A DNA stretch of 64,000 nt, taken from the NCBI GenBank assembly GCA_017404205.1, contig JAFRCV010000014.1:1-64000 (forward strand), written 5' to 3'. A program made the translations under genes and the position numbers. Source of the DNA: Erysipelotrichaceae bacterium. GTDB lineage: Bacteria; Bacillota_I; Bacilli_A; Erysipelotrichales; Erysipelotrichaceae. Of this stretch, positions 2,370 through 57,049 are shown piece after piece. A model generated the notes under the pieces. That model made no database searches. It was not told where the DNA came from and was given only the letters and a program-made list of their open reading frames with translations. Positions within the stretch are counted from its first letter, which is position 1. Every line of letters begins with the position of its first letter.

Positions 2370-2396
2370 AAAAGAATGATTAATTTCATTCTTTTT
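2369..2396. terminator. bidirectional terminator between convergent genes
   Basis: AAAAAGAATGA and TCATTCTTTTT form an 11-bp stem with a 6-nt loop. It has A and T runs on both sides, so it can stop transcripts from the methyltransferase and from the minus-strand glycosyltransferase operon. It overlaps the last codons of the latter. Confidence 0.75.
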
Positions 2397-3900
2397 AATA
2401 TGATTCTTTCCAATAGAATGTTACATTAGCATCTGGATTTAAGCCATAATATGCTTTAAAGGTTTCAAAATGATATACATCATCTTCTTCGATATCAGCA
2501 CCATGAATGGTATAGATTGGCATTCTTGGAATATAGATATCTAATTCATTTTGATGGCCTCGATAATAATTAATGATTTGCTGTCGCTCATTTTCAATTA
2601 AACTAACTTTATTGTATTTTATTAAATACTCTCTTGTCCTTAGTCCTATCAAAGAAACAAATACTACCAACATTAAAATCATTAATTTACCTGCATCCTC
2701 AATAAATAATTGATAATTTAAGGCAGTCGCAATAATTATATAGTAGACAAAATATAAAGATGATCTTGCGCCAAATATTGGCGACACAAGCATTACTAAA
2801 TTAGAACTTCCCGCAAGAACAATGAAGAACAATACTTTTAATTTATCTTTTTCATTTTTTATATTTCTTATAATAATGACAAACGCCATAACAATATAAA
2901 CAAACCAATATAACCATATAATTGGATTATTTTTATCATTTAAATTCATAATCAACTCATTATGTAATACAGATCCAACATTGAGTGAAAATAATAAAAA
3001 GATGGAAATAAGTTGATATGCAATAAACAAATATTTTAATAATTTATTTTTCTCTTTATAGAAAGATATTCCGATTAAACTTGTCGCAAAGAAAAGAATT
3101 GTAAATTTATGCTCAACAAAACTTAAACCTATAAAATTTGGCATATTGAATAAGAATTTATCAAGCAAAGGAAGAGAGTTAAACTCAACATGGTCCCTCA
3201 TTAATCTAGCATTAGAACCAGGAGACATCCTCATAATAATAAAACTGATTAAACTTAATACAAGATAAATAATTAATTCTAGAGATAACTTTTTATTTTT
3301 TATATAGTAATATATCAACAAAATTATTTGCGCAAAAACCATAATAGCCGCAATATTTTCCATCGTTAAACCGATATAAAAACAGGCGATTCCATTTATA
3401 ATTTTTAAAGATAGAGGCATTAAAGATATATCGTCAATATATTTTAATGTGATCATAAAATACAAAAGCGATAAGGCTAAAGGAATTACATATGTATCTC
3501 CCATTATCCAGGTATATGTTTCCATTCTTAAATCGCTATTTACATTTAAGATCATACATATAATTAATAATGCAGTATATAAACTATTCTTTTGCGCTTT
3601 ATTGGTGATTAAAAATATATATAGAAAAATAGAGGCAAACAATAAAGGATTTAAAATATTCCATAGCCATTTATTAGGAGCCACAATAAATCCCCAAAGT
3701 TCACTAAAAAATCTTCCTGACCATGTATTATAAAATTCAATAGCTGTCTTAATTGGATTACCTTTTAAACCGTTAATGGCATATCCCCAATCATCTCCCG
3801 CTAATGGCGTTTTGTAGGTCATATATAAGAATAAGCCAAAGATGAATAGTGTACTTATAAGTGGAACAATAATTTTTTTAATATCTAATTTTTTAGTCAT
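2395..3900 (-). CDS. polytopic membrane protein, DUF6056/GT-C-like
   Basis: A protein of 501 residues with about 11-12 hydrophobic segments. After the first segment comes a conserved-looking outside loop (PLAGDDWGYAINGL, residues ~32-45), and later loops contain SGRFFSELWG and RMETYTWIMGD. The early DDW acidic pair resembles DUF6056 and other GT-C fold enzymes that use a lipid-linked sugar donor on the outer membrane face. I infer transfer of a side-branch sugar, but no family member is recognised precisely. It overlaps the preceding glycosyltransferase by 8 nt and is the last gene of the operon. Confidence 0.68.
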   Translation of the reverse strand: MTKKLDIKKIIVPLISTLFIFGLFLYMTYKTPLAGDDWGYAINGLKGNPIKTAIEFYNTWSGRFFSELWGFIVAPNKWLWNILNPLLFASIFLYIFLITNKAQKNSLYTALLIICMILNVNSDLRMETYTWIMGDTYVIPLALSLLYFMITLKYIDDISLMPLSLKIINGIACFYIGLTMENIAAIMVFAQIILLIYYYIKNKKLSLELIIYLVLSLISFIIMRMSPGSNARLMRDHVEFNSLPLLDKFLFNMPNFIGLSFVEHKFTILFFATSLIGISFYKEKNKLLKYLFIAYQLISIFLLFSLNVGSVLHNELIMNLNDKNNPIIWLYWFVYIVMAFVIIIRNIKNEKDKLKVLFFIVLAGSSNLVMLVSPIFGARSSLYFVYYIIIATALNYQLFIEDAGKLMILMLVVFVSLIGLRTREYLIKYNKVSLIENERQQIINYYRGHQNELDIYIPRMPIYTIHGADIEEDDVYHFETFKAYYGLNPDANVTFYWKESY

Positions 3901-4867
3901 TATCTTTTTTTCCTAACAATCTCAACAATAATTTTGTGTATCTTTTCTTTAATAAGAAGAAGAGGATATGTTTTTTAAATCCCATTTCTTTTATTAAATG
4001 ATTTGAATACCAACTTGGATAATACTTTTCCAATAATTCAGCATTTCTTTTTAAGTATTCATTTCTTTTTGAATCAAAATTAGAAATCCTAAGTGTAGTT
4101 AAATCAGCGCCATGAATAATGTAATAGTCATTAAACTTATCAATGATGTTTTGTTTACCTTGATATTCTTTAAATGATAATATTTCTTCTTTAACTTTAT
4201 TGATGGCTTTATATATATCAAAGATGCGATCATCCCTCTTGTGGACAATTGATCCTTGTCTTTGAAAGTACATATATAATTCTTCATTTAATTTAGATAT
4301 TTTATTAGCTTTTGAAAGAACAGTGGGTATAGAAGCCAAATCTTCATACCACATTCCTTTAGGAAAACGATAATCATCAAATAAGTCTTTTTTGAATAAT
4401 TTATCACATGCCGAATTTGTGATAAAAATTAAATCATTGTTTTCTTTTGGGCTTCCACTTTCAAACTCATATTGATAAGCTTTTTTAATAGTTCCATCTT
4501 CATATGCATAATCTAAATCACAAACAACGATGTCACTATTTTCCTTATCGGCTTTTTTCATCAACAACTCTAGAGCGTCGTTTCTAAGATAGTCATCACT
4601 ATCAACAAACATTAAATACTCACCGCTTGCCTTGTCGATACCATAATTTCTCGCATCTGAAAGGCCACCGTTTTCTTTTATATATCCATGAATATTTGGA
4701 TATTTATTTTCATATTCATCAATAATTAGCTGGGAATTATCTTTACTACCATCATTGATACATAATATCTCAATGTTTTGATATGTTTGATTAACTAAAG
4801 AATCTAAACATTTTCTTAAATATTTTTCAACATTATAAATAGGAACAATTATACTAACTTTTTTCAT
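3893..4867 (-). CDS. family 2 glycosyltransferase (first of three by position)
   Basis: A 324-residue GT-A fold enzyme. It opens with VSIIVPIYNVEKYLRKCLDS, then has NDGSKDNS, ENGGLSDARNYG and the DXD metal site FVDSDDYL near residue 95, with MWYEDL further on. The C-terminal ~100 residues are basic and probably contact the membrane. The family adds a sugar from a nucleotide donor to a lipid-linked acceptor in the cytoplasm. The sugar cannot be deduced. The gap to the upstream paralogue is 3 nt and the overlap with the downstream gene is 8 nt, so translation is coupled. Confidence 0.92.
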   Translation of the reverse strand: MKKVSIIVPIYNVEKYLRKCLDSLVNQTYQNIEILCINDGSKDNSQLIIDEYENKYPNIHGYIKENGGLSDARNYGIDKASGEYLMFVDSDDYLRNDALELLMKKADKENSDIVVCDLDYAYEDGTIKKAYQYEFESGSPKENNDLIFITNSACDKLFKKDLFDDYRFPKGMWYEDLASIPTVLSKANKISKLNEELYMYFQRQGSIVHKRDDRIFDIYKAINKVKEEILSFKEYQGKQNIIDKFNDYYIIHGADLTTLRISNFDSKRNEYLKRNAELLEKYYPSWYSNHLIKEMGFKKHILFFLLKKRYTKLLLRLLGKKDND

Positions 4868-4870
4868 ATT

Positions 4871-5845
4871 CTAATTCTTGTCCCTTCTAGTGATGATCAT
4901 CTTCCACAAATCATATGTGAATCTATTTATTGTCTTATAGAACAATTTGTTTTTTAAATTAAAGATTTGTTTTAAATATTTATTCTTTCTCCAATTAGGA
5001 AATTTTTCATTGATAAGTTTTAATGATTTATCTAATAATTCTTGATAATGATCAGTTCTTAAGAAACGATAGGCGCCATAAATCATTAAATGTTCCGCAA
5101 ATAAATATTCAATCTCATCATAATATTCATTTAATAAATTTCTAGAATTAAAAGCATCATAAACTTTATTCATTGAAATAAAGATGTCGTTCATCTTTTC
5201 ATTATAAGAACTATTCATAATGCTTCCATTGCGTTGAAGATAATTGTATAAAGGCATATTCACATAGCCGATATTATTACTTAACACAAATAAAATAGTT
5301 GTTACGGGCAGGTCTTCATACCATAAACCCTCAGAAAATTTTAAATTATTATTAATTAGTATTTCTTTTTTATATAACTTATTCCAAGCATATAAAGGTG
5401 ATAATAAACCAGCTTTATGATAATCAGAAACAATATTATTCATACCATAAGATATATGGTCTTTCTTTGAATAATCTTCATATTTAAATGTCAAATCACA
5501 TGTTACATAATCGGCATTTTCTTGTTTAGCTTTATTATATAGAAGCTCATACATGTTTTCTTCAACATAATCATCACTATCCACAAAACCTATATATTCA
5601 CCATCTGCGTATTGTAAACCATAATTCCTTGCACTACCTAAACCACCGTTTTCCTTTATATAGCTTTTGACATTTGGGTATTTTAAAACATATTCATCAA
5701 TAATCTTTTGGCAATTATCTGGCGAGCCATCATTGATGATAATGATTTCAATATCTTTAAGTGTTTGATTTACTAAAGAATCTAAACATTTAGTAAGATA
5801 TTTTTCCACTTTATATACAGGTACAATTACTGATACTTTTTTCAT
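4871..5845 (-). CDS. family 2 glycosyltransferase (second of three)
   Basis: A 324-residue paralogue of the neighbouring enzyme. Motifs are VSVIVPVYKVEKYL, NDGSPDN, ENGGLGSARNYG, DXD as FVDSDDYVE, and LWYEDLP. The last 20 residues differ fully from the other two copies. It overlaps the upstream paralogue by 4 nt (ATGA). The three probably act in turn on one repeat unit with different donors or acceptors. That is an inference from their divergence outside the motifs. Confidence 0.92.
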   Translation of the reverse strand: MKKVSVIVPVYKVEKYLTKCLDSLVNQTLKDIEIIIINDGSPDNCQKIIDEYVLKYPNVKSYIKENGGLGSARNYGLQYADGEYIGFVDSDDYVEENMYELLYNKAKQENADYVTCDLTFKYEDYSKKDHISYGMNNIVSDYHKAGLLSPLYAWNKLYKKEILINNNLKFSEGLWYEDLPVTTILFVLSNNIGYVNMPLYNYLQRNGSIMNSSYNEKMNDIFISMNKVYDAFNSRNLLNEYYDEIEYLFAEHLMIYGAYRFLRTDHYQELLDKSLKLINEKFPNWRKNKYLKQIFNLKNKLFYKTINRFTYDLWKMIITRRDKN

Positions 5846-6813
5846 TTTATTCTTTTATAGAAAAGATATGTTTTTAATAAGAATTTATTTAAATATATCT
5901 TATCTTCTTTATAAGTATATAATGAATATTTTGATTTCGGAAAATCTTCAAAATATTTTTTTATAAAATCAAAAGTATCATCAATAAACTTATTTACAAA
6001 TTTCTTATCAGTATAATATGGTAGTTTTCTTAATGACCATAAAATATTTTTTATACATAAGCATTTCAATTCTTCATAATATTCTTCAAAAACTGAATTA
6101 TCTTTATAGAAAGAAATAATGCTTTCACACATCGCTAATGTGTGGTATATTTTTTCATTTTTTTCTTGAGATATATTATTAGGACGATCAATTAAATAGT
6201 TGTATAAAGGATGACTAATAAAAGAAATTTTATTGGCTAAATATAATAATTTGGCTGTTGTGCCAAGATCTTCTTGAATATACCCTTTAGGATATTCAAT
6301 ATTGTTTTTTACAAATAAAGATCTTTTATATAACTTATTCCAAGCACAATTACTTATGCAACATAATATTTCCTTATTGTCTTTTAATGAATAAGCCTTA
6401 GCTTCTTCAAATGGCTCATGAATAATTTCTTTAGTGTTTGTTGAAAGATAATATTGGTTATAATCAAAGACAACAATGTCTGATGAATGTTTTTGTGCCG
6501 TTTCATAAGCATCTTTGATGAAATCTTTTTCAACAAAGTCATCTCCATCAACAAACATTACATATTCACTATCACAACGTTTTAATCCATAGTTGCGTGC
6601 ATCACTTAACCCGCCATTTTCTTTATCTAATAAAATGAAATGATTATCTTTTATACAGTATTCTTCAATAATCTTTTTACTATTGTCAGTAGAGCCATCA
6701 TTAACACAAAGAACTTCATAATCTAAAAATGTTTGAAGCCTTAAAGACTCCAAACATTTATTTAGATAATTCTCGATATTGTATATTGCGACAATAACAG
6801 AAACTTTCTTCAT
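5842..6813 (-). CDS. family 2 glycosyltransferase (third of three)
   Basis: A 323-residue GT2 enzyme: VSVIVAIYNIENYLNKC, NDGSTDNS, ENGGLSDARNYG, DXD as FVDGDDFV near residue 95, and YIQEDLGT in place of WYEDL. It starts one base after the LCP gene's stop codon, so the two are translationally coupled. It is the most divergent of the trio in the C-terminal half. As an operon partner of an LCP wall ligase it probably builds the polymer that the LCP protein attaches. Confidence 0.92.
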   Translation of the reverse strand: MKKVSVIVAIYNIENYLNKCLESLRLQTFLDYEVLCVNDGSTDNSKKIIEEYCIKDNHFILLDKENGGLSDARNYGLKRCDSEYVMFVDGDDFVEKDFIKDAYETAQKHSSDIVVFDYNQYYLSTNTKEIIHEPFEEAKAYSLKDNKEILCCISNCAWNKLYKRSLFVKNNIEYPKGYIQEDLGTTAKLLYLANKISFISHPLYNYLIDRPNNISQEKNEKIYHTLAMCESIISFYKDNSVFEEYYEELKCLCIKNILWSLRKLPYYTDKKFVNKFIDDTFDFIKKYFEDFPKSKYSLYTYKEDKIYLNKFLLKTYLFYKRIK

Positions 6814-9393
6814 TTATTCGCCTTCCTCACTAGAAGTATATTGATATATTTGAATACTTAAACCATTTGTTTCTAAATATGATTTATTTACTTCCCCAGA
6901 AGCGCTTTGACTAGAGATTTTTGCATCTTGGCTTTGATCTGTCGTCTCTATTGGATTGACATTTTTCTCTAACCCGTATTGTTCACAAAAGGCGAAATAT
7001 TCATCAACTGTATTAAATGTTGGTACGGTGATTTTTACATCTGGTCCTAAAGATATAACAACCGTTACATAGCTATCGGTACTTACAATTGGATTAGTTG
7101 ATGAGCTTGTATATATAGTTTTATTAACTGTTACAGATATTACATTACCAGCAGGAACGCTATCATTATAAGTTTGGGTAATATTTGTGTTGATAAAGCC
7201 ATTATTATTAAACCAAGCTTGTACTCCCGTTTTATCGCTTGCGAAAATTGTAGGCAAATCAAGCTCGATTGAAACAATCTTATTGTAAGTGACATCAATT
7301 GGTCCTGTTAGCTCATTTAACATTGTGTATGCTTCAACAGATTGGAAACTTACTTTATTACCAAAATCTTTGTTGTAACCTACTTCGGTGTCCTTGATTG
7401 TTGTTACTCTAACTTCAACGCCTGGATGATCATTTATCCATGTATTGAGATCGCTTAACGACATGCCAACAAATTCTGGAACAACGAATTCATATCCACA
7501 ATCATCATATGAACGATATTCTTCTAATTTACAATTGACAGTATGTTTAATTACCCAAACAGTTAATTCTTTAACATCAGCTGTTTTCTTGCCATAAGCT
7601 ACACTTTGTTGAATAATCGCATTATGCATATAAGAAGCATCATATAATTTATCGCCTTCTTTTACTTCAACAACTGATAATTTAATCCAGCTTCTATCTT
7701 TTAACCACGTCTTAATGCTTTCAAGTGTATAACCGTTAGTAAATGATGGAATAATATCTGGTAAGTTTTGATTTTCTCTTTGTTCATTATAAGTATCAGG
7801 AAGAGAGAATTCATCATAATATGGATAAGCCGTATCATAATCACTGAAATATTCTTTTGATAAAGTAGTATTAACTTGAAGATTACGATCAATGACAGCT
7901 TTATTGTCAGCTATAGATCCTTTAAATGGAATATAAATCCACAATGGTAAAGATAGTTGCTCGTTATATGTCCAAGATTCATATCCTGTCACCCTTGTGT
8001 TATAGAATTTAAATATTCCATCTACTCCATCAACTCTACCCTCATATGTAGAATTAAGCATCTTTATACCAAAATTAATTAATTGTGATATTTGGTCTAA
8101 AGAGAAATTTGTTTTGATATTATCGCCTGCGGCTTCAATGACATCAATAATTTTATTTAAATCTTTTGTATTTAACATTTTTTCAGCCATAGCTTTGATG
8201 ATTGTTTGTTGGTTTTCTTGTCTTGCGAAATCGCCACCTGGCATAGCGTGTCTTTCTCTAGCTAATGCAAGTGTTTGTTGACCATCTCTTTCAAGCCATC
8301 CTTGTCCAACCCAAACAACAAATTTACCACGACCATTTTCATCATTTTCATAACCAGCTTGTTGACCAATAAATGTTACAGGAGAATAAAGTGTTAAACC
8401 ACCCATAGCATCAACCATATCAACAACACCATAGAAATTAACTTCAACATAGAAATCAATAGTTACGCCCATCATGTTTTCTACAGTATCGATAGTACAT
8501 TGACGAGATATAGTACGAGCGTGATTAATCTTATCTCTTGCCCCACCACTATAACAAGCAATAGGCACAAAACTATCTCTGGCAATTGATGTCATTGTAA
8601 CTGTCATGCGCTGTGGATTAAAAGTCGCAATCATCAATGAGTCAGTTCTTTGTTCATCTATTCCCATTAGTAATACAGTGAATGGATCTTTTGTTAAATC
8701 TTTATCATTGCCAGATAAAGTAGTAACTTTGAATTCTTTTGAATACGTATGAATAACTTTTGTATTTTTTAAATAATCTTCATAACCATCATTTACAGAA
8801 AACATTTGATAATAATTATCAGGCAAAGCAGCTACATCAATTTCTTCAGAGAACAAAGCTAAAATTAAATCATTATATGAAGTATAAGGAACCATTTCTA
8901 ATTTAAGATTATTCTTTTCTACTACTTCAAGAGCTAATACATTACCAGCAATAAATGATTCATTATCAATGTAACCAAATTTAGTTGTGCCTTTTAAATC
9001 ATCAATAGTATTTATATTTGAATTATTATAGGTTACAAAAGCAACTGTGCTTGTTTCTATTTGTTCATTATCGGTAATGATAATATTATCGACTGATTTA
9101 TTAATTCTTCCTAAATAATAAGAACTAGTAATTGTTATTTCAAGAATAACAATAGCCATTATGATATTAGTAAAGAATGACCATCTTTTCTTAAATTTAA
9201 TAAAGTAATAACAAAGAAGATCAATCAATAAAGACAATATTATTAAGGCAACACTAGCAAATATAATCGTTGCTTTAGAAAAAGTCGCATATCTTAATAC
9301 GAAAGTAATAAAGATAATTGAACTTGTCGTTTGTGCTAACGATAAAACAATTGAAATATAATCAAGGACATTTAATTTCTTAATCATTGGCAA
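6814..9393 (-). CDS. LytR-CpsA-Psr (LCP) family wall-polymer ligase with binding-protein-like and PASTA-like regions
   Basis: An 859-residue protein, over twice the usual LCP length. In order: three membrane segments (~12-35, 42-66, 72-93); a periplasmic-binding-protein-like stretch (~115-222, with INTIDDLKGTTKFGYI and EEIDVAALPDNYY); the LCP domain (~238-405, with LLMGIDEQRTDS, IARDSF at 270-275 and DFARQENQQ at 388-396, carrying the conserved Asp and Arg residues); then ~400 residues of PASTA-like repeats (xVPEFVGMSLSDLNTW, TYNDSVPAGNVISV). LCP enzymes move lipid-linked glycans onto peptidoglycan outside the cell. The PASTA-like tail could bind wall. It overlaps the upstream gene by 14 nt. 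Confidence 0.9.
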   Translation of the reverse strand: MPMIKKLNVLDYISIVLSLAQTTSSIIFITFVLRYATFSKATIIFASVALIILSLLIDLLCYYFIKFKKRWSFFTNIIMAIVILEITITSSYYLGRINKSVDNIIITDNEQIETSTVAFVTYNNSNINTIDDLKGTTKFGYIDNESFIAGNVLALEVVEKNNLKLEMVPYTSYNDLILALFSEEIDVAALPDNYYQMFSVNDGYEDYLKNTKVIHTYSKEFKVTTLSGNDKDLTKDPFTVLLMGIDEQRTDSLMIATFNPQRMTVTMTSIARDSFVPIACYSGGARDKINHARTISRQCTIDTVENMMGVTIDFYVEVNFYGVVDMVDAMGGLTLYSPVTFIGQQAGYENDENGRGKFVVWVGQGWLERDGQQTLALARERHAMPGGDFARQENQQTIIKAMAEKMLNTKDLNKIIDVIEAAGDNIKTNFSLDQISQLINFGIKMLNSTYEGRVDGVDGIFKFYNTRVTGYESWTYNEQLSLPLWIYIPFKGSIADNKAVIDRNLQVNTTLSKEYFSDYDTAYPYYDEFSLPDTYNEQRENQNLPDIIPSFTNGYTLESIKTWLKDRSWIKLSVVEVKEGDKLYDASYMHNAIIQQSVAYGKKTADVKELTVWVIKHTVNCKLEEYRSYDDCGYEFVVPEFVGMSLSDLNTWINDHPGVEVRVTTIKDTEVGYNKDFGNKVSFQSVEAYTMLNELTGPIDVTYNKIVSIELDLPTIFASDKTGVQAWFNNNGFINTNITQTYNDSVPAGNVISVTVNKTIYTSSSTNPIVSTDSYVTVVISLGPDVKITVPTFNTVDEYFAFCEQYGLEKNVNPIETTDQSQDAKISSQSASGEVNKSYLETNGLSIQIYQYTSSEEGE

Positions 9394-10117
9394 TATCCCT
9401 CACATAATCTTCATGCATATAAGCTACTTCTAGTCGATCATTAGATACAATCAACATAATATTTGATTTATTAGGAAGTTCATTGATGTTGAATTTAGAA
9501 TCATTTGGCACAGAATATGTCCAATGAGCCTTTACTAGATAAGCATCATAATATTGTGGCTCCTCGTAATCTGTATCATTTGAATAATCATGTATCCAAA
9601 TAGATACTTTATATTGAGAATCTTGTTTTTCAACAGTATCAATGACGATATCATCTACAATTGGCAAATTCTCAACACCATATTCCTTCATCAATAGATC
9701 TAATTGGTAATAATAATAATCTCTTGCACCAAATGAGAAATTCATATGGTATGGACCATATACATAATCAATACCACCCACATCATATGAGCCTCTTTTA
9801 TTTCCCCAAGAGAAATAATCAGCTATGAAATTTTTCGCAACAACGGGTGCTAATTCGCTCAAGTCCTCAGTGTTGATATCTTTTACTTTTGAACAGCTAT
9901 CAGTTAATTCATCATATAGTTGCTTTTGATAATTGGTCATATTGTTTGGTGCTTCATATAGATTCGCTTTGTTTGGTACAGTGTTGTCGTCAGTTTGATT
10001 AGCTTGGCTTATTAAACCATGAATAGCTAATAGTACAAAAACCAAACAGATAATCGCTAAAATAAGCATCACAATTTGGAATATCTTTTTTGTTTTTTTT
10101 CTACTAGATTTTTTCAT
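9380..10117 (-). CDS. membrane-anchored protein of unknown function, first gene of the LCP operon
   Basis: A 245-residue protein with a basic N-terminus (MKKSSRKKTKK) and one hydrophobic helix (~12-34). The exterior domain is rich in Tyr and Asp, with two Cys (one in DSCSKV). The region YVYGPYHMNFSFGARDYYYYQ at ~120-140 is the most distinctive part. I recognise no family. As the promoter-proximal partner of the LCP gene, overlapping it by 14 nt, it is likely an accessory of wall-polymer attachment. Transcription appears to start at the ATG (see the promoter at 10124). Confidence 0.7.
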   Translation of the reverse strand: MKKSSRKKTKKIFQIVMLILAIICLVFVLLAIHGLISQANQTDDNTVPNKANLYEAPNNMTNYQKQLYDELTDSCSKVKDINTEDLSELAPVVAKNFIADYFSWGNKRGSYDVGGIDYVYGPYHMNFSFGARDYYYYQLDLLMKEYGVENLPIVDDIVIDTVEKQDSQYKVSIWIHDYSNDTDYEEPQYYDAYLVKAHWTYSVPNDSKFNINELPNKSNIMLIVSNDRLEVAYMHEDYVRDIAND

Positions 10118-10186: not shown

Positions 10187-10732
10187 ATGGACATCAAATA
10201 TCTTATAGAAAAAATTGAATTACTTGATAATTATTATTTATCGGAAAAAAATATTGATCTTAAAAAAGCTTTTAATGTTAAAGGCAAGATTCTATATGAC
10301 AAAAATGGCGCTCCATATCATAGATCACTGTTAATCAGTAAAACCAATGATGGTAAAAGTTTAACTATTATTAAGAAAAAAGAAAACCTTTTATTGGGTA
10401 TAGGCATAGATTTAATAAAGAAAGATAGGATAAAAAAACACGATTTTTCTAAATCAAAGATTTTCTTTTCAAGTGAATTAAAACAAATAGATGATAAATA
10501 TAATAATTATTTAAAAATATTATCTATCAAAGAAGCCTCATTTAAAGCGCTAGCTCCTTTATATCGTAAAGAAAATACAAGTTCAAATATTTTTGATTTT
10601 GAAATAAACAAAAAGATAATACCACATAAAAAAAGTAAAAAAATACTTGATAAGTATTCAGCAAGAATTAAATATCAAGTATTAGAAGATAATGAATATA
10701 TATTTGTGGTCAGCGTTTGTTTAAAGAAATAA
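10187..10732 (+). CDS. 4'-phosphopantetheinyl transferase (AcpS/Sfp superfamily)
   Basis: A 181-residue enzyme with the two superfamily signatures: GIGID at 71-75 (Mg-binding Asp75) and KEASFK at 115-120. It moves phosphopantetheine from CoA to a carrier-protein serine. A carrier gene lies 4 kb away in the convergent operon, so this is probably its dedicated activator. It is longer than AcpS (~125 aa) and shorter than Sfp (~225 aa), with about 65 N-terminal residues of unclear role. The start is leaderless. The last 23 nt overlap the end of the convergent YfhO-family gene. Confidence 0.85.
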   Translation: MDIKYLIEKIELLDNYYLSEKNIDLKKAFNVKGKILYDKNGAPYHRSLLISKTNDGKSLTIIKKKENLLLGIGIDLIKKDRIKKHDFSKSKIFFSSELKQIDDKYNNYLKILSIKEASFKALAPLYRKENTSSNIFDFEINKKIIPHKKSKKILDKYSARIKYQVLEDNEYIFVVSVCLKK

Positions 10733-12875
10733 GCTTTTTCTCTTTGACAATAGTCAACAAAAAACTAATGATCCCAATTAGACTAATTATGGTGCCTGTT
10801 TTGATGCCTGGAGAAGAAAAATACATTTCTATCTCACTATAGCCTTTATTCAATTCAATGCCAATAAAACCACCATTTACGCTTATTGGCTTAATTAAAT
10901 TTTTATTAACATAGATTTTCCATCCACTATTGTTGGGAATTGGTATCAATAAAATATTATCGTAATTTAAGTCTATTTCACCTTTCAAATAGTTGTTGCC
11001 TTTTTCAATTATATTAAATCGTGTGTATTCTTTTATGCCGTTATCTATTTCATAATTTGAGTCATCAATGAACAATGTTTCTTCAAAATCAATAAAATCT
11101 TTAAAATTATCTAAATGATCTAAGTTACTTAATGTAAAGCCAAAACCTTTGTAGTTCATGTTTTTATAAACTTTTAAGTCCGATAAATTATAACAGTATT
11201 CAAATTCAAATTCAGAAGGCAGTTCATCTTCATCATAAACAATCCAATATTTTGTTCCTAGCATATTCAAACTATAAGGGTTCTTAATATCAATAAAATG
11301 CATATAACAATCATTTAAATAATTAAATTGATTTGTTGTATTATCATACATAGAATTATAAGTCTTGCTTGACATTAGTCCGTAATCCATTGGAATATTT
11401 AAATTCAATTCTGAATAAGGAACAACATTTTCCCAATCAATGTAGTAACGATACATTATTTCATCATCTAATTCTTCATAATAAGCTACTTCGTTTTTAT
11501 TAATACGATTATATATATTGCTAAAGTTTGCTTTGACAATTGTATTAAATATTGCAAAAAGCAGCGTTACAAAAATTGTTAAATATAAAGAATATTTAAA
11601 ATTTTTGTAATAAACAAGCCAAACAAAAAAGGAAGTAAGTAGATAAACAAATAATGTTAAATAATGTATTCTATATTCTTTGAAGCTAAAGCCCATGATC
11701 AACAGAACAACTATTGAACAGATAATTAAAATAAAATATATAGCAAATAGACGATTGACTAATATTCCTTTATCTAATTCAATTGAACCAATAATTAAAA
11801 GATAAGTTTGCACTAAAAATAGCCATCTAAAAGACGGCTCACTAAAGCCGTGCATAATGGATGATAATGGTCTTAAAATTGCAATGCAAAACAAAACAAT
11901 TAATAGAAATAAACAGTTTCTATTTTCTTTTTTTAATGCATAAGATATAGAATTAATAAAATATATGATACCAACATTAATAACAAACCAATAACTATGA
12001 CCACCATCATTCTGATAAAAAATATTAGGATATGAAGAATAAATAGGAAATTGACTACTTATTGGACTTAATAGCAGTTCAATATATGTTTCTAAATTCC
12101 AAAATACCCTTGAATCACTTTCACCCAAGCGCGAATTATTTAATACTGTTAGTGATGCTGGTAATAGTATTACAGCACTTGCCATAAAACCGATTAAAAA
12201 GCCAAGAGAAATATTAATAAAGTCTTTAAGTAATCTTTGTTTTCTTATTTCTTTGTCAAACCCTAATTCGATGCTTAAACAATACAACACCATAAAAACA
12301 ACAGTTGGATACATCATATAGAAGTTTTGTGTAGAAAGAATAAAAACAGAAATAATAATCAAAGACTTTTTGCCATTTTGATAATATTTTTCAATTCCTA
12401 AGAACAGTAAAGGCAAAAAAGTATAAAAGCGGTGAAACATATAATCGCCAAGATAACTAATACTCCAACCACCAATGGCATAAACAATGGCAGTTGTACA
12501 AATAATTAGCGAGGATTTAATACCTTTATTTTTAAGAAGTTTAATAAATAGAAAAGCACTTAAATAAAAACAAACGAACGTTTCAACTATCAACAAATGT
12601 TTTACAGATTTGATAAAAAAACTAAGAGGAAAAAGAAATAACACAAAGATGTCACCAGTACAATAGTAAGTCATTGATGAATAAAAGTCGCTACCTAAAA
12701 ACAGATTCCATGAATAAGCAGGGAATCCTTTACCTTTAAAAAAATCACCAATTAATCTAAACCATTCACGATAAAATACATCATATTGATACAATTGATC
12801 GTTGCCAAAAAAGAATTGCTTATTATTAATATATAGATAAAAAACAATTAATATTAAATATAAAGTTATGATCAA
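10710..12875 (-). CDS. YfhO-family membrane protein (GT-C-like), N-terminus broken by a one-base frame slip
   Basis: A protein of 721 residues with about 13 membrane segments, an early outer loop (FFGNDQLYQYDVFYREW), and a C-terminal exterior beta-rich domain (from ~470) ending in a last helix. This is the layout of YfhO-type proteins, which put sugars on lipid-linked wall polymers. The only start in this frame is a TTG at 12875 with no ribosome site. A better start, ATG at 12922 overlapping the ligase stop (TAATG), reads MMKAFLKGKKNILFPF and meets TGA. One extra T in the five-T run at 12874-12878 (five A on the plus strand) would join the frames. It is either a real mutation, a sequencing error or slippage. 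Confidence 0.8.
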   Translation of the reverse strand: MIITLYLILIVFYLYINNKQFFFGNDQLYQYDVFYREWFRLIGDFFKGKGFPAYSWNLFLGSDFYSSMTYYCTGDIFVLFLFPLSFFIKSVKHLLIVETFVCFYLSAFLFIKLLKNKGIKSSLIICTTAIVYAIGGWSISYLGDYMFHRFYTFLPLLFLGIEKYYQNGKKSLIIISVFILSTQNFYMMYPTVVFMVLYCLSIELGFDKEIRKQRLLKDFINISLGFLIGFMASAVILLPASLTVLNNSRLGESDSRVFWNLETYIELLLSPISSQFPIYSSYPNIFYQNDGGHSYWFVINVGIIYFINSISYALKKENRNCLFLLIVLFCIAILRPLSSIMHGFSEPSFRWLFLVQTYLLIIGSIELDKGILVNRLFAIYFILIICSIVVLLIMGFSFKEYRIHYLTLFVYLLTSFFVWLVYYKNFKYSLYLTIFVTLLFAIFNTIVKANFSNIYNRINKNEVAYYEELDDEIMYRYYIDWENVVPYSELNLNIPMDYGLMSSKTYNSMYDNTTNQFNYLNDCYMHFIDIKNPYSLNMLGTKYWIVYDEDELPSEFEFEYCYNLSDLKVYKNMNYKGFGFTLSNLDHLDNFKDFIDFEETLFIDDSNYEIDNGIKEYTRFNIIEKGNNYLKGEIDLNYDNILLIPIPNNSGWKIYVNKNLIKPISVNGGFIGIELNKGYSEIEMYFSSPGIKTGTIISLIGIISFLLTIVKEKKLISLNKR

Positions 12876-12921
12876 AAAGGAAAAAGTATATTCTTTTTTC
12901 CTTTTAAAAAAGCCTTCATCA

Positions 12922-14394
12922 TTATCTCAGTTCTTTCAAATATGTTCGATTAATCTTACCATTGGCATTAAGTGGCAGTTCATCCATGATAATTATTTTA
13001 TTAGGGCACATATAATCTGATAAATGTTCTTTTAAATAAACATTAATATCCTTTGTGCTTGTTTGGGGATCAAACACTTCACAATATAGTTTTAAATGTT
13101 GTTTTTCTTCTAGATATACACAACATGATTGTTTAATAAGCTCACATTTATTGGCGATGCTTTCTATTTCTCCAAGTTCTATTCTATGTCCCATCTTCTT
13201 AATTTGAAAATCTTTTCTTGTCACAAAAACAAGGTTTCCTTCTTCATCATACTTTGCGATATCACCGGTCGCAAAATATCTTTTTGTTCCTTGTCCATCA
13301 AGATTGGCATAGATAAATTTCTCATTGGTTTTTTCTTCATCTTTGTAGTAACAAAGCGCAAGGGCATCACTACTTATATACATTTCTCCAAGAACTTCTT
13401 TTTCACTAAGCACATTTCCATCATTAATCAACAATACTTTACAGTTATCTAAAGCTTTTCCCATAGGCAAGAATAATTGGTCATCTTTAATTTCTTTAAT
13501 ATCGTATGTGGCAAACACACCGGCAATTTCAGATGAGCCAAATAGATTTACATATTTGATATTAGGAAGTGCTTCAAGCCATTTTCTTAAATATTTAATT
13601 GGGAAGCTTTCGCCTACAAAAAACACCTTCTTTAAAGTTGTTGGCATAATATCTTCAAAAGTATTAGTCTTAACTATTATCGACAACATAGATGGAACCC
13701 AAGATATGAAAGTTATCTCCTTTTGATTAAGATATTCAATTAGCTTATAAGGATATGAGAAAAGGCGACTTGGAATAATCTCCATTCTAGAGCCAGCCAA
13801 CATCATCAAATACAAATCCTTAGCAGCTGCGTCAAAAAAGAAAGGAGATTGATTACCAATTATTTCATTTGAATCAAATTGATATTTATCAATATAAGTC
13901 TTAATAAAACTTATCATCGCATCATGACTTTTTAAAACACCTTTTGGTTTGCCAGTAGATCCTGAAGTATATACCATATATAAAGGCTTATCATTTGTAT
14001 CATCAAGATTATAAACACCAATTTCATCATCATATTTATTAATTAGTGTTACATTTAAGTCTTGAGTGTTTTCATTTTCTAAATCAATAATAATTCTCAT
14101 TTGTGTTTCTTCAATTATTGATTCTAATTTTTCTTTTGGCGTTTTATTATCTAGTGGTACATAGAAATTATCAGAATATAGGACAGCAAGAATAGAGATG
14201 ATAGATGTAATTTTTCTATTAACAAAAATACCTATCGGCACATCTTTTGTGTCGTTAATTTTTTTAATTGTGTTAGCTAATTTTAAGCTTTCGTTTTTTA
14301 ATTTTAAAAAAGACAACTGCTCTATATCATCGCATACAGCTATTTTGTCTTTATAATTTTCTACAGTATTTTCAAATAAATTTAAGATATTCAT
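12922..14394 (-). CDS. amino-acid adenylating enzyme (DltA-like, D-alanine:carrier ligase type)
   Basis: A 490-residue ANL-superfamily enzyme. It has the phosphate loop YTSGSTGKPKG (142-152), FFFDAAAKDLY with Asp188 placed to hold a substrate amino group, the GD motif in YFATGDIAKYD, the hinge RKDFQIKKMGHRIELGEIE, and the catalytic Lys480 in NGKINR. It would activate an amino acid with ATP and load it on the carrier encoded just upstream, with which it overlaps by 4 nt. Length and context (carrier, MBOAT, DHHW protein) match the dlt pathway, so D-alanine is the first guess. An NRPS-like ligase for another amino acid is possible. Confidence 0.85.
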   Translation of the reverse strand: MNILNLFENTVENYKDKIAVCDDIEQLSFLKLKNESLKLANTIKKINDTKDVPIGIFVNRKITSIISILAVLYSDNFYVPLDNKTPKEKLESIIEETQMRIIIDLENENTQDLNVTLINKYDDEIGVYNLDDTNDKPLYMVYTSGSTGKPKGVLKSHDAMISFIKTYIDKYQFDSNEIIGNQSPFFFDAAAKDLYLMMLAGSRMEIIPSRLFSYPYKLIEYLNQKEITFISWVPSMLSIIVKTNTFEDIMPTTLKKVFFVGESFPIKYLRKWLEALPNIKYVNLFGSSEIAGVFATYDIKEIKDDQLFLPMGKALDNCKVLLINDGNVLSEKEVLGEMYISSDALALCYYKDEEKTNEKFIYANLDGQGTKRYFATGDIAKYDEEGNLVFVTRKDFQIKKMGHRIELGEIESIANKCELIKQSCCVYLEEKQHLKLYCEVFDPQTSTKDINVYLKEHLSDYMCPNKIIIMDELPLNANGKINRTYLKELR

Positions 14395-14618
14395 TCTGTT
14401 AATGATTCAACAAGCTTAACAATAGCATCGACACTTTTAAAATTATCTTCAACAATATATTTAGCTGAAATGTTTACATCAAATGTATCACATAGTTCAG
14501 CAACTAAATCAATTATTGATAACGAATCAATTAAACCATCCGCAATAATATTTTCACCGTCATAGTTTCTAATATCTTCGTTTATTTCATCAAGAATTTC
14601 TAATATTTTTTCTTTCAT
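14391..14618 (-). CDS. acyl/aminoacyl carrier protein (DltC-like)
   Basis: A 75-residue acidic four-helix carrier with the phosphopantetheine site DGLIDSLSIIDL. Ser32 is the attachment residue. Its size and the DSL motif match DltC and other stand-alone carriers. AGGGAG precedes the ATG. It is 24 nt downstream of the DHHW gene and overlaps the ligase start by 4 nt. It is expected to be activated by the PPTase at 10187, charged by the ligase and used by the MBOAT protein. Confidence 0.88.
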   Translation of the reverse strand: MKEKILEILDEINEDIRNYDGENIIADGLIDSLSIIDLVAELCDTFDVNISAKYIVEDNFKSVDAIVKLVESLTE

Positions 14619-14642
14619 AATCGCTCCCTAAAATATTATATC

Positions 14643-15878
14643 TTAATTTATAGGAATATAAAGATTGCCATTAAAATACATAGTATTATATGTAAAATCA
14701 ATAAGAGCTATATCAATATCATATTCATTAATGTAATAATCTAAATTGAAATCATTAGGTTTAGCTCTTAAATCAATGATTAATGTTTTATTGAAATGCG
14801 AAGCAATCCAACTCATGTTGGTATTGATATAGGAATCAGCGAAAATAAGAATATTTGGTTTATCATCTTGGTGAAAATCAAATTCTCTTAAAAAATAATT
14901 ATCACCAAAATATAAATCGTAATCAGAATATACGGTATCATTGCCATTAGCTGCATATAATTCTTTAGCTTCGTTTAAATCGATTTTATTTCCATTGGCG
15001 AAATAATCATATTCGCCAAGATCCTTTAATATATAATCTTCTAGTTTGTCACTACTTCCAACCATTCCGATTTTACTAGAGATGTTACCTTTAAATTCTC
15101 TATCATATACAATTTCTTTTTCTATTTCTTTTATTGGACCTAGTTCATAATCTTTAGAAATCATATCAATTATGTCAACATAACCTTGATATGCACCAGC
15201 AGCTTTCCAGTGTTCATCAGATTTATAGAAATATTTTTGATGGTCCTCAACACTGCCTATCTTTAATGCTGAATAAGAGATATTTCCGTTTAATTGTCTT
15301 AAGTAATTTTCCCGACATAATAAACGATTTTCTTTTTCACTATTCAACATTTCTTCAAGCCTTGTAGGAAAATAAATATATGTTTTAACATCTGGATAAA
15401 GTTTATCAAACTCATTAACGTTATAGCCTCTTGAAGAAGCTAATTGAAGTTGTTCATCATTGTATTCAACAATGCCATTAATTAAATAGCCATCATTTAT
15501 TTCAATAACATCATCTGACAAATAAAGTATGCTGACATCATTTTTAAAGTCATTATCTATATCAATAGTGCCACCACCATTTAGAAGGCCTTTAACTTTA
15601 TAAACATGACTAATAGATCCATCAACAAATTTATTAATAACTCTATTTAAGTTTGTCTTAATTTCAAAATAATTATGAGTAAGGAAATCTCTAAAATAGA
15701 ATTGGTCTTTCAAAACATTTTCTATATTTAAAGACAATTTATTATCTAAAACAATTGATTCATTTGTGGCCAATAATCTTTTTTCCATCTTAGATTCATA
15801 TCTTTGTGGCAAGATAAAAAGACCTATGCCTAGGACAAATAATAATATTAATAATAAAGATAATAGTTTATTACGCAT
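14643..15878 (-). CDS. DHHW-motif protein (AlgJ/AlgX/DltD-like partner of the MBOAT)
   Basis: A 411-residue protein with an N-terminal membrane anchor (5-23) and an exterior SGNH-hydrolase-like domain. The signature is SDEHWKAAGAY, Asp221 and His223, and FADSYINTNMSW carries the Ser of a GDS-like block. Such proteins work next to an MBOAT in alginate or cellulose acetylation and, as DltD, in D-alanylation, passing the acyl group to the polymer outside the cell. DEHW in place of DHHW is seen in the family. TAGGAG precedes the ATG. The gap from the MBOAT stop is 8 nt. Confidence 0.82.
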   Translation of the reverse strand: MRNKLLSLLLILLFVLGIGLFILPQRYESKMEKRLLATNESIVLDNKLSLNIENVLKDQFYFRDFLTHNYFEIKTNLNRVINKFVDGSISHVYKVKGLLNGGGTIDIDNDFKNDVSILYLSDDVIEINDGYLINGIVEYNDEQLQLASSRGYNVNEFDKLYPDVKTYIYFPTRLEEMLNSEKENRLLCRENYLRQLNGNISYSALKIGSVEDHQKYFYKSDEHWKAAGAYQGYVDIIDMISKDYELGPIKEIEKEIVYDREFKGNISSKIGMVGSSDKLEDYILKDLGEYDYFANGNKIDLNEAKELYAANGNDTVYSDYDLYFGDNYFLREFDFHQDDKPNILIFADSYINTNMSWIASHFNKTLIIDLRAKPNDFNLDYYINEYDIDIALIDFTYNTMYFNGNLYIPIN

Positions 15879-15886
15879 TTAATCTC

Positions 15887-17326
15887 CTAAAAACTAAAAT
15901 ATATGAAGGCCGAATAAGATCCACTGACAATAAAACATATTGATACAACTAATAATAATAGAAGTAAAATATCGTAAACATTTTTATTAATTCTTTTAAA
16001 CAAACTATGTACAGCTGGGAATAAGAATATAAATGAAAGAATCAAATAGAATAATAAGTACAAAATATCTAATGATTTTATATAAGACATTGAGAATCTT
16101 TCACCTATTCCTAATAACCCTTTTGTAAGGTTTGTGATTTCAACGATGTTGGTACATTTGAAAATCAATGATTTCATCAAGAAAATAATCAACATTGTTC
16201 TAATAATTTGGAAGGCTTTCCATAATTTTCCATCAGAATTAATCTTAAGCTTTGCCAATATCTTTCTATAGAAATCAGAGAAATTAGAATCACAGATGAT
16301 TATTAAACCATTAATTAATCCCCAGATAACATAATTAGCAGATGAGCCATGCCATATACCTGTCAACAGCCAAACAGCCAACAAAGAAATTATTTTAATA
16401 AAGCTTCTACCGACTTTTTTGTTTTTAAATTTTTTAGATATTTTTCTCAAAAACGCAGATGTTGATACTGGCATAAAAACATAATCATTAAACCATTTTC
16501 CCAAGCTCATATGCCATCTACGCCAGTATTCCGCAATTGAATGTGAAAAATATGGGTCATTGAAATTCTCAGGAATCACAAAGCCAATCATTTCACCAAT
16601 GCCAATTGCCATATCGCTATATCCAGAAAAGTCATAGAATTCTTGAATGCCATAAGCAATCAAGGCATACCAAGCTAATAAGAATGATATTTTTGTATCA
16701 CCATTTATAACTGTTGTACTAATGATATTAAGTTGATTGGCAATTATTACTTTTTTAGAAAGACCAATAATGAATCTTCTAAAACCGTTGGCGATAGAGT
16801 CAACACTAATATTTTTGTTTTTTAAATATTCTTTAAAGCTATCATATCTAATCAACGGTCCACTAATGACAACTGGAAAGAAACTTAAAAATGTGAAAAT
16901 TTTTAAGGGATTTTTTTCAGCATCATATTTTTCATAGAACACATCACTAACATAACTTATAGAAGTAAATGTATAGAAACTTATACCAAGAGGCATAACA
17001 ATTTTAAAGAAATTTAAATCTTTTAAATATGATTTAAATGCTTCTATAATGTATGTTCCATATTTAAAATAAGATAAAATACCTACAACCAATATCAAAT
17101 ATAAAACATACAATCTACGATTATTTTTAACTTTTAGCGCTGATAAGTACGTTATCAAGAAAACAATCAATAATATATGTATATGTTTTATGTCACCTAA
17201 ACAATAAAATATTATAGAAAATAAAGGAAGAAGTATGTTTCTTACATTATTGTTTTTAATAAAAAACATTAATCCAATAAATAATGGTAAGAAAAGTAAA
17301 ATAAAAAATAGAGAATTAAATTCCAT
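15887..17326 (-). CDS. MBOAT membrane acyltransferase (DltB/AlgI-like), first gene of the cluster
   Basis: A 479-residue polytopic protein with the MBOAT hallmarks: EYWRRWHMSLGKWFNDYVFMP (His272) and the invariant His326 in GIWHGSSANYVIWG. About eleven hydrophobic segments. DltB and AlgI carry a charged acyl group across the membrane to an outside partner. The carrier and amino-acid ligase in the operon point to an aminoacyl group rather than acetyl. The start is supported by a leaderless promoter 6 nt upstream. Confidence 0.9.
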   Translation of the reverse strand: MEFNSLFFILLFLPLFIGLMFFIKNNNVRNILLPLFSIIFYCLGDIKHIHILLIVFLITYLSALKVKNNRRLYVLYLILVVGILSYFKYGTYIIEAFKSYLKDLNFFKIVMPLGISFYTFTSISYVSDVFYEKYDAEKNPLKIFTFLSFFPVVISGPLIRYDSFKEYLKNKNISVDSIANGFRRFIIGLSKKVIIANQLNIISTTVINGDTKISFLLAWYALIAYGIQEFYDFSGYSDMAIGIGEMIGFVIPENFNDPYFSHSIAEYWRRWHMSLGKWFNDYVFMPVSTSAFLRKISKKFKNKKVGRSFIKIISLLAVWLLTGIWHGSSANYVIWGLINGLIIICDSNFSDFYRKILAKLKINSDGKLWKAFQIIRTMLIIFLMKSLIFKCTNIVEITNLTKGLLGIGERFSMSYIKSLDILYLLFYLILSFIFLFPAVHSLFKRINKNVYDILLLLLLVVSICFIVSGSYSAFIYFSF

Positions 17327-20500: not shown

Positions 20501-20534
20501 AAGTATATTTATTCTATTTAAATAAAAAATGGTT

Positions 20535-20540
20535 TATATT
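20535..20540 (+). promoter_or_regulatory. -10 box, leaderless start of the first LTA-synthase-like gene
   Basis: TATATT followed by AGTGTT and the ATG at 20547. The spacing is the same as at 10175 and 38076. Confidence 0.45.
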
Positions 20541-20546
20541 AGTGTT

Positions 20547-22478
20547 ATGAAAAAATATTTAAATACCTTACTTGTTTTTATATCTTTGTTGTTGATAGAT
20601 TTGATATTTTATTTAATCAGTTTTGAAAAATTGCGTTTTATAGCCCTTTTGAGAATGATACTAATTAATGGGGCGTTAGCTTTTTTATGTACATTGTTTA
20701 CATCTAAAACTAAAAAAAGACTTAATACAATAATATGTTTTATTTTAATCTTTTTATTTGGTGTTTATGCCTATATACAATTGGGATTAAAGAATATGCT
20801 AGAAACATATTATTCTTTTAAAGCTGTTGCTGACGGTGGCTTTAGAGTAGGTGAATTTGTTGGCTATTTTATTAAATCTACAAAGTGGACATACTATCTA
20901 GAATTCTTACCAGCCATCCTATATTTGATATTAAGAAGATATTTTAATGACGATTATAAAATAAGTATAAAAATGATTGCCGTTCCTATAATTTGTGCTT
21001 CATTATTATTGTTATCGCTGATTAATTCTGAGGGACCATTAAAAGATGCGATTAAGGGACAAGACAACTTAGATGTTATAGTTTCTCATACTGGTGTTAA
21101 TACTTTCTTGTTTGAGGATATTTCTTCTTTGTTTATTAAACATGAAAATAGATTAGTTATTGAAGATGCTGAAGAAGAGATAATCGAGGAAGAAATACCT
21201 AAAGAGATTTCCTTAAAAAGAACATTCGATGATACAAGATGGTTAAATGATATTGATGAAGAAAATGATGATACATTAAAAACCATCGATAACTATCTAA
21301 TAAGTAGGCCAATTGAAAATAAAAATGATATGACAGGTCATTACGAAGGCTATAATTTCATTTATTTTTTAGTTGAATCGTTAGATTATATGGGCATTGA
21401 TAAAGAGTTAACACCGACCATTTGGAAGATGATGAATGATGGCTATTATTTTTCTAATCACTATACACCAGTCTTCACATGTGGAACAGGTGATTCTGAA
21501 TTCGCATCCATGACATCGCTTATGCCATATGGATCAAATTGCACAGTTTATTCAGTGACGCACAACAATCTATCTAATTCAATAGCTACATTATTTAAAA
21601 ATAAGGGCTATTCAACATACGAGTTTCATAACTGGGATGATACATTTTATAAGCGCAGTGAACTATCAAAGGCTTATGGTATTGATGTATATAAAGATAT
21701 TGATGATTTAGATTTTGATATTGTATATGGTTGGCAATCAGATTCTATCTTAGCTGAAAAAACAATGGACTATTACATAAATGATGATAATTTCTTTGTC
21801 TATTATGTAACTTCAACAATGCATTGGCCATATAATGAAGATTCTTATTATGGCAATCATTATTTAGATAGAATTAATGAAGTTCATCCAGATTACCCAC
21901 TTGAAGTTAAACGCTATATCTCAAAGACAATGGAATTTGATAAGATGTTAGAAACATTGATTGATGGTTTGAAGAAAGCTGACAAACTAGATAAGACTGT
22001 CTTTTGTTTTTGGCCAGACCATCATCCATTTAATATTTCAGTTGATTATGTAAAAAGATATACAAACATTATTGATCGTTACCAACCGTATGGCTTTTAT
22101 ATGAGCCCATTCATAATCTATTGTGCAAATGATAAAGGTGAAACAAATACATCGATTTGTTCAACATTTGACCACCTTCCAACAGTAGCTAATCTATTCA
22201 ATCTAAATTATGATCCTCGATTATATGTGGGAAATGATATTTTCAATGATAATTGTCGCGTCATTTTAACAAATGGTGATTGGATAAATAATGATGGTAT
22301 CTATATTTACGCAAGCGATGAGTTTATAAATTTCAATAATTCTGAAATATCAGAAGAAAAAATTGATAAAATAACTACAGAAGTAAGAAATACTGTAAAA
22401 GTAAGTAGAGCCATGGTATCAACGGATTATTTTAATAAAAGATCATATTTAGTAAATCCGATTAATATAGAAGAATAA
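20547..22478 (+). CDS. LTA-synthase-family membrane sulfatase-fold enzyme (first copy)
   Basis: A protein of about 643 residues: five N-terminal membrane helices (to ~170), a linker, and an extracellular alkaline-phosphatase/sulfatase-fold domain. Metal-site residues are visible: Glu in LVESLD, the catalytic Thr in CGTGDSEF, and Asp-His in FWPDHHPF. Family members transfer glycerol-phosphate or phosphoethanolamine from a lipid to surface polymers. An in-frame ATG at 20529 exists. ATG 20547 is preferred because TATATT at 20535-20540 is 6 nt upstream and no ribosome site exists for either. It is followed after 10 nt by a small membrane protein. Confidence 0.88.
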   Translation: MKKYLNTLLVFISLLLIDLIFYLISFEKLRFIALLRMILINGALAFLCTLFTSKTKKRLNTIICFILIFLFGVYAYIQLGLKNMLETYYSFKAVADGGFRVGEFVGYFIKSTKWTYYLEFLPAILYLILRRYFNDDYKISIKMIAVPIICASLLLLSLINSEGPLKDAIKGQDNLDVIVSHTGVNTFLFEDISSLFIKHENRLVIEDAEEEIIEEEIPKEISLKRTFDDTRWLNDIDEENDDTLKTIDNYLISRPIENKNDMTGHYEGYNFIYFLVESLDYMGIDKELTPTIWKMMNDGYYFSNHYTPVFTCGTGDSEFASMTSLMPYGSNCTVYSVTHNNLSNSIATLFKNKGYSTYEFHNWDDTFYKRSELSKAYGIDVYKDIDDLDFDIVYGWQSDSILAEKTMDYYINDDNFFVYYVTSTMHWPYNEDSYYGNHYLDRINEVHPDYPLEVKRYISKTMEFDKMLETLIDGLKKADKLDKTVFCFWPDHHPFNISVDYVKRYTNIIDRYQPYGFYMSPFIIYCANDKGETNTSICSTFDHLPTVANLFNLNYDPRLYVGNDIFNDNCRVILTNGDWINNDGIYIYASDEFINFNNSEISEEKIDKITTEVRNTVKVSRAMVSTDYFNKRSYLVNPINIEE

Positions 22479-57048: not shown

Positions 57049-57049
57049 T

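Follow-up and report, generated by a model that had tools for sequence, protein, structure and literature searches.

A CpsA-type LCP protein with C-terminal PASTA repeats and an adjoining partner gene in an Erysipelotrichaceae bacterium

LCP (LytR-CpsA-Psr) enzymes attach teichoic acids and capsules to the Gram-positive wall. To our knowledge, two questions are still open: the way in which they locate their acceptor, and the coupling of polymer synthesis to attachment. Both bear on an LCP gene on contig JAFRCV010000014.1 of an Erysipelotrichaceae bacterium (assembly GCA_017404205.1), of which positions 1 to 64,000 were analyzed; this whole stretch is called the window. A first-pass annotation, made from the sequence alone, had described the product as an LCP protein with three helices, a binding-protein-like region, and a PASTA-like tail. 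Pfam, hydropathy, a profile comparison with the PDB, and AlphaFold2 all agreed with this description. The protein is probably a CpsA-type LCP ligase of glycopolymers that is anchored in the membrane and kept in the wall by its PASTA repeats acting as a stalk, with the product of the upstream gene, called the partner, as an accessory.

The catalytic domain matched Pfam LytR_cpsA_psr (PF03816) at E 8.6e-37, with 127 bits against a curated cut-off of 24.6. A profile of 11 proteins, covering the accessory and LCP domains, aligned with Cps2A at E 1e-52. The catalytic residues named for Cps2A are D234, D246, R267, R362, D371, R374, and Q378 (PMC7831098), and they fitted the aligned chain at one constant numbering offset (96). 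Their counterparts in the window protein are D246, D251, R272, R379, D388, R391, and Q395; all seven are present. Among 47 LCP cores (39 labelled tailed and 8 tail-less), R272, D273, R379, R381, and R391 were invariant. In the tailed rows the D246 position was Asp in 26 of 39, D388 was kept in 36/39, and Q395 in 37/39. The earlier proposal of polymer attachment is well supported by the residues mapped to Cps2A and by a gene run with three glycosyltransferases, and the enzyme would act as a phosphotransferase, or ligase, on a polyprenyl-linked glycopolymer.

The hydropathy rule that placed three helices at the N-terminus (Table 1) also found three in 78 of the 79 named relatives with an intact N-terminus. 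The named loci were the best 80 of the 134 matches to a genus-level alignment that were confirmed, and they were biased toward the window clade. Alignments drawn from them (A2, 70; A3, 45; A4, 60; A5, 51 loci plus the window; A6, 10 plus the window) omitted open-ended, short, or odd rows.

In the accessory region Pfam gave Phosphonate-bd at residues 115-215 (E 3.5e-5) and NMT1 at residues 112-194 (E 6.7e-4), both slightly below the cut-offs. Searched against the PDB, a profile of 71 accessory domains matched the binding domains of transporters, the best at E 8e-9 (a glutamine transporter). AlphaFold2, run from the alignment of 71 accessory domains, gave a predicted local distance difference test (pLDDT) score above 90 across residues 112-221. 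In VIA comparisons, the model matched parts of XAC2383 (Z 15.7, 120 residues, 3.2 Å), PtxB (Z 14.9, 103 residues, 2.1 Å), and PhnD (Z 14.2); its match to the Cps2A accessory domain had Z 12.6 over 114 residues at 3.4 Å. The region has about 110 residues, equivalent to 93-201 of PtxB's 259, and is a single lobe, so a full type II solute-binding protein was rejected. Structure prediction, which the first-pass annotation had suggested for residues 110-225 and 430-859, found both a binding-protein lobe (112-222) and PASTA folds (545-853).

CpsA-like LCP proteins of cluster F3 are described as having three helices and a periplasmic-binding-protein-like II accessory domain (PMC2632651). The window protein has both, and this combination is the published CpsA plan. 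It had been held to be exceptional; it is typical of CpsA-like LCP proteins as PMC2632651 describes them, and the N-terminal architecture was rejected as a novelty because it was already published in 2008.

The PASTA tail was supported by both sequence and fold. Pfam PASTA (PF03793) scored 31.1 bits over the whole protein against a cut-off of 23.2, with the strongest stretch at residues 724-757 in repeat 3. AlphaFold2 on residues 437-859 (46 sequences) gave strand-helix repeats with a mean pLDDT of 84.8. The top 30 Foldseek matches of this model were all PASTA-containing chains (best E 2.2e-10, PknB), 21 of them at E ≤0.001. The matched folds were PASTA domains of PknB, PrkC, and PBP2x. VIA Z scores for the tail were modest, yet the rows were PASTA throughout to rank 25, and repeats 3 and 4 together (model residues 271-415) matched PknB with Z 8.2 over 128 residues at 3.4 Å. 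These models indicated that the four-repeat PASTA tail is real. Its length had been put at about 400 residues after the catalytic domain. Residues from about 437 to 530 still belong to the LCP domain, so the PASTA part covers about 310 residues (545-853); about 330 residues lie past the LCP core.

The composition of the tail differs among relatives. Pfam at E 0.01 on 61 proteins (the window protein and 60 others) found LCP in 61, PASTA in 40, NMT1 in 25, and Phosphonate-bd in 21. Two InlB-type repeat families were found in 7 and 3 proteins, and Big_9, a cadherin-like domain, and MucBP in 1 each. As judged from these domain matches, the ligase bears a variable surface tail with PASTA as its commonest module. 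The tail is variable among relatives; therefore, PASTA is not required for the ligase.

PASTA repeats were also seen outside LCP proteins. A stand-alone membrane protein of 484 residues, encoded at 34263-35717 (+) of the window, combines one helix with a PASTA tail that Pfam matched in four stretches (117 bits), and PASTA matches occurred in frames of about 500 residues in several same-genus genomes. A further membrane PASTA protein of the same genome (L006, start of C12) has near-identical tandem repeats and ends at a contig edge.

The distribution of tailed LCP proteins was surveyed within the window's class, with families given by the codes of the search tool (f1, f2, f10, f12, and f13). 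By hand count, the long form, with an open frame of 738-1109 residues, was found in 24 of 35 same-genus genomes other than the window's own. Eight of the 11 genomes without it were 57-78% complete, and three (G022, G027, and G031) were 90-95% complete. In the sister family f2, CpsA matches had open frames of 416-628 residues among the matches listed. Seven f2 entries stopped 0-7 residues past the LCP match, and one of these (L041_c14) matched the core just in its first part. When 247 genomes were drawn from across the class, an LCP match was found in 76; among f12 genomes with such a match, 28 of 31 had an open frame of at least 600 residues (hand count). Ten proteins from f1, f12, and f13 were scanned; seven had PASTA at E 0.1, and five of these were above the Pfam cut-off. 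Long-tailed LCP forms are common in Erysipelotrichaceae and are also present in f12 and f13, two other families of the same class. A unique or recent fusion was thus rejected, and the architecture is not peculiar to the window genome, being common in its genus and family.

A tree of the 47 cores with midpoint rooting placed 38 of 39 tailed rows and one tail-less row in one group (support 86/87). Five f2 rows stood together beside it (98/96), and the tail label needed three changes. Twenty-five named rows were labelled tailed by architecture; one of them, L093, has just 67 residues past the core, below the 100-residue rule applied to the others. L158 (the same protein as L136), L162, L003, L038_c6, and L041_c14 were dropped before the tree.

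A conserved cysteine pair, C280 and C299, lies near the catalytic R272. C280 was found in 37/39 and C299 in 38/39 tailed rows, and in 0/5 and 1/5 of the tail-less f2 rows, respectively. The tail-less row placed within the tailed group carries both. The two residues may form a disulfide near the active site.

The LCP gene is the second of a run on one strand, in the order partner, LCP, three family 2 glycosyltransferases (GT2), and DUF6056, with spacings of -14, 0, -4, 3, and -8 nucleotides. The run may be co-transcribed. The overlap between the partner and LCP frames shrinks from 14 to 8 nucleotides if LCP translation begins at the ATG, two codons inside the TTG start. This ATG is the likelier start because AGGG stands 9 nucleotides upstream of it. 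The genome is 1.62 Mb, 99.7% complete, and has three LCP genes. Named relatives assigned the window LCP protein to Erysipelotrichaceae, and the closest named row was an uncultured Solobacterium (L042) with 85% identity in the LCP core.

The partner domain matched no family in Pfam or NCBIfam, with scattered weak matches only, and nothing convincing in the PDB (best E 0.015). Resemblance to a VirB8/TcpC-like fold was faint and confined to a short stretch. The match to the TcpC/VirB8-like NTF2 fold profile covered only 22 columns (probability 61), and TraE matched weakly in 2 of 52 members (best E 0.001). A profile of the 52 members found the partner in 77 of the 80 named loci, and in all 25 loci L012-L036, the window among them. 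In 76/80 it lay on the LCP strand and ended no more than 150 nucleotides from the LCP start. Longest frames overlapped in 49, and some of these overlaps may be start-codon artefacts. The four exceptions were L104 (contig edge), L111 (partner downstream on the opposite strand), and L118 and L121 (no match). In L110, from Erysipelothrix tonsillarum, two partner homologues were seen in one locus, only one of them adjoining the LCP gene. The cultured relative Holdemania filiformis (L046) also carries the partner-LCP gene pair.

The partner was found in the genomes of 46 of 61 relatives and in 64 of the 247 class-draw genomes, and its neighbours differed by family. TagO-, LtaS-, and TagF-like are our labels for Pfam Glycos_transf_4 (GT4), Sulfatase, and Glyphos_transf. 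In f2, the partner occurred in 20 of 24 genomes, each time within an open frame of 566-630 residues. At all 20 loci (L153-L156 and L179-L194) it formed the C-terminal part of one frame with GT4 (BLAST to L153). Pfam confirmed GT4 in the four fusions tested and gave no match for their C-terminal part. The window genome's two GT4 genes (375 and 335 residues) are too short for such a fusion. In f12, an LtaS-like sulfatase gene immediately preceded the partner in 24 of the 26 genomes with a match, and Pfam Sulfatase was found in the six tested; LtaS-like, partner, and LCP genes were three neighbours on one strand in L211, L212, and L216. In f13, the partner adjoined LCP in 6/6 genomes with a match (L131, L163, L164, L220, L221, and L222). 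The preceding gene in L163, L220, and L222 resembled aspartyl-tRNA synthetase by eye, which is outside the wall-polymer pathway. In f10, it stood beside a CDP-glycerol glycerophosphotransferase gene in L160 and L227 and not visibly in L217 (2/3 loci). In f1, the window's own family, 15 of 23 class-draw genomes had the partner, and besides the window it adjoined LCP in nine (L122-L130). From f7 and f18, one partner gene (L162) was convergent with a 460-residue LCP gene, and another (L161) had neither neighbour; G075 and G084 gave matches as well.

We read the partner as a putative extracytoplasmic accessory of a lipid-linked wall-polymer pathway. It is fused to a TagO/WecA-type enzyme in one family and paired with the last enzyme in another, which argues for a coupling role. 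It may physically contact the LCP protein. A broader idea, which we put forward tentatively and rather doubt, is that the partner domain could have a general, extracytoplasmic coupling function for lipid-linked wall polymers throughout the class. It would be wired to the first enzyme (the TagO-type fusion), the polymerising enzyme (LtaS- or TagF-like neighbours), or the last enzyme (LCP). With the tailed, cysteine-paired CpsA clade, it would make up a complex, anchored in the wall, from which finished polymer passes to peptidoglycan. No report of the partner domain or its GT4 fusion was found among the papers listed from the open-licence literature searched. A domain beside or fused to enzymes presumed to act at the start, middle, and end of the pathway offers a concrete handle on the coupling of synthesis and attachment, and the group of bacteria concerned is large, mostly uncultured, with a little-studied envelope.

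In the proposed mechanism, the three N-terminal helices would put the remainder of the LCP protein outside the cell, where the one-lobe accessory domain would precede the LCP domain. The latter would transfer a polyprenyl-pyrophosphate-linked glycopolymer to peptidoglycan; the adjacent glycosyltransferases probably help to make this polymer, whose identity is conjectural. The four-PASTA tail would extend into the wall and, presumably by binding it, hold or position the enzyme beside its acceptor. The partner membrane protein would assist it as an accessory that serves the same lipid-linked polymer pathway outside the cytoplasm. With a ligase that has a PASTA tail of its own, acceptor targeting can be tested directly.

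Parts of this mechanism can be read differently. The accessory lobe might be a working sensor that binds an amino-acid-like or phosphate-containing small ligand and gates the ligase, much as the first-pass annotation had proposed. The lobe does resemble amino-acid and phosphonate/phosphite/oxyanion binding proteins. Moreover, positions 144, 145, 186, and 194, which we take to be the ligand half-site of such proteins, are partly conserved among the 71 rows (G144 in 33, T145 in 43, D186 in 62, and Y194 in 63). However, a single lobe forms no two-lobe cleft, and the window protein, unlike many relatives, has N144-E145-S146 and no Gly-Thr. Cps2A has Lys at the D186 position; its Gly-Thr lies two columns away, so a loss of Gly-Thr in Cps2A is not secure. 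The lobe is also the known CpsA/Cps2A accessory domain, and the account in PMC7831098 links that of Streptococcus agalactiae CpsA with promoter binding and with a dominant-negative effect rather than with a small ligand. We therefore consider a sensor unlikely. A role in glycosylating a surface protein rather than peptidoglycan, as for Actinomyces oris LcpA, seems very improbable: LCP-mediated protein glycosylation has been reported (PMC6381275), but the gene context here is that of a surface glycopolymer, although no search was aimed at an acceptor protein or a sortase.

The tail might also be a mere spacer or display stalk that binds nothing and keeps the LCP domain out in the wall. We give this a substantial chance, though below even. 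Relatives' tails vary in length and module (PASTA, InlB B-repeat, Big_9, cadherin-like, and MucBP), and in the genus alignment (25 proteins) repeats 2-4 are poorly conserved. On the other hand, repeat 1 is conserved throughout the genus, and tails from other families of the class contain PASTA too.

Several observations weigh against a wall-held CpsA-type ligase working with the partner. The protein scored 143.9 bits against the NCBIfam CpsA equivalog NF051849 (aligned 26-444), whose cut-off is 650; it shares the CpsA architecture and is not an equivalog. The Mg-site Asp (equivalent to Cps2A D234) is replaced in 13/39 tailed rows, D388 in 3, and Q395 in 2, with the window protein intact. The tail is not constant. 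Among 70 complete named relatives, 7 extend just 55-97 residues past the LCP core, against at least 100 in the other 63. Of the 61 proteins, 21 lacked a PASTA match at E 0.01, and some carry InlB-type, Ig-like, or cadherin-like modules. The association with the partner also has gaps. In f1, the partner is apart from the LCP gene in 5 of 14 genomes besides the window's (L157 and L223-L226). It had no match in 8 of the 23 f1 class-draw genomes, among them G294, which has LCP proteins of 745 and 670 residues (L228 and L229). Two f12 loci (L195 and L219) have no LtaS-like neighbour. The f2 GT4 could serve another polymer, which weakens the argument for coupling.

Table 1. Coordinates of the LCP protein, its parts, and the genes of its run in the window
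Feature	Residues	Positions	Strand	Basis or remark
CpsA-type LCP protein with C-terminal PASTA repeats		6814..9393	-	859 residues from TTG 9393; likelier start ATG 9387, 857 residues
Three transmembrane helices	15-33, 43-61, 72-90	9124..9351	-	Hydropathy
Accessory domain (single lobe, type II periplasmic binding protein)	112-222	8728..9060	-	AlphaFold2, VIA, profile
LCP catalytic domain	~232-530	7804..8700	-	Pfam, alignment to Cps2A
Conserved cysteine pair	C280, C299	8497..8556	-	C280 at 8554-8556, C299 at 8497-8499
PASTA-fold repeat 1	545-616	7546..7761	-	VIA Z 8.2, 58 residues, 1.7 Å to PBP2x; best conserved of the tail
PASTA-fold repeat 2	635-705	7279..7491	-	VIA Z 8.0, 58 residues, 1.7 Å to PBP2x
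PASTA-fold repeat 3	706-783	7045..7278	-	VIA Z 8.8, 67 residues, 2.2 Å to PknB PASTA 3
PASTA-fold repeat 4	788-853	6835..7032	-	Matched solely within the two-domain alignment; pLDDT ~80-92
Partner gene		9380..10117	-	245 residues; one transmembrane helix (residues 12-30) and an extracytoplasmic domain without Pfam/NCBIfam name
Family 2 glycosyltransferase		5842..6813	-	Same gene run
Family 2 glycosyltransferase		4871..5845	-	Same gene run
Family 2 glycosyltransferase		3893..4867	-	Same gene run
DUF6056 protein		2395..3900	-	Final gene of run

Other surface-polymer genes were observed in the window and the genome. At 10187-17326, genes for a phosphopantetheinyl-transferase-like protein (slightly below cut-off), an AMP-binding protein, an AlgX-like SGNH protein (weak), and an MBOAT protein stand together; the set resembles an acylation (dlt-like) set for surface polymers. 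Two LtaS-like sulfatase-domain proteins are encoded at 20529-22478 and 23516-25369 (+). A surface polysaccharide set at 53775-63983 (+) includes CapD-like, sugar transferase, and O-antigen-ligase-type genes, interspersed by eye with aminotransferase-like and glycosyltransferase-like frames. A second LCP protein of the genome (L002, C15:70412-73873) has 470 residues and appeared by eye to be lipoprotein-like, with no helices but a binding-protein-like region ahead of the LCP domain. No RNA feature above Rfam thresholds and no tRNA were found in the window.

The CpsA plan is known, and so is LCP with LytR_C; LCP with a PASTA tail was not met in the open-licence literature searched by titles and abstract starts, among the matches listed. 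In the parts of PMC10493332, PMC13251363, PMC9733580, and PMC5062060 that were covered, LCP and PASTA terms concerned different proteins or other things. Actinomycete LCP-LytR_C proteins, such as CglA of Streptomyces, likewise join an LCP ligase to an additional C-terminal domain, but that domain is given as LytR_C and not PASTA in the relevant part of PMC11481543. The Ser/Thr kinases PrkC, PknB, and StkP, and also PBP2x, share tandem PASTA repeats outside the membrane; here the repeats, which are weakly similar in sequence, belong to an LCP ligase in place of a kinase or transpeptidase. LcpA (Psr) of Enterococcus hirae is an LCP protein shown to bind peptidoglycan (PMC5059904). It differs in having one helix and 293 residues, and its description in PMC7831098 mentions no PASTA. 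CpsA/Cps2A (Wzg) of cluster F3 shares the three N-terminal helices, the accessory domain, the LCP domain, the catalytic residues, and a glycopolymer locus with the window protein. The latter differs by its C280/C299 pair, by its partner gene, and by four PASTA repeats in the roughly 330 residues that follow its LCP core. F3 proteins outside streptococci, in Clostridiales members, have 456-559 residues and are said to be like CpsA (PMC2632651). The window protein, at 857-859 residues, exceeds this range, and the surplus is its PASTA tail.

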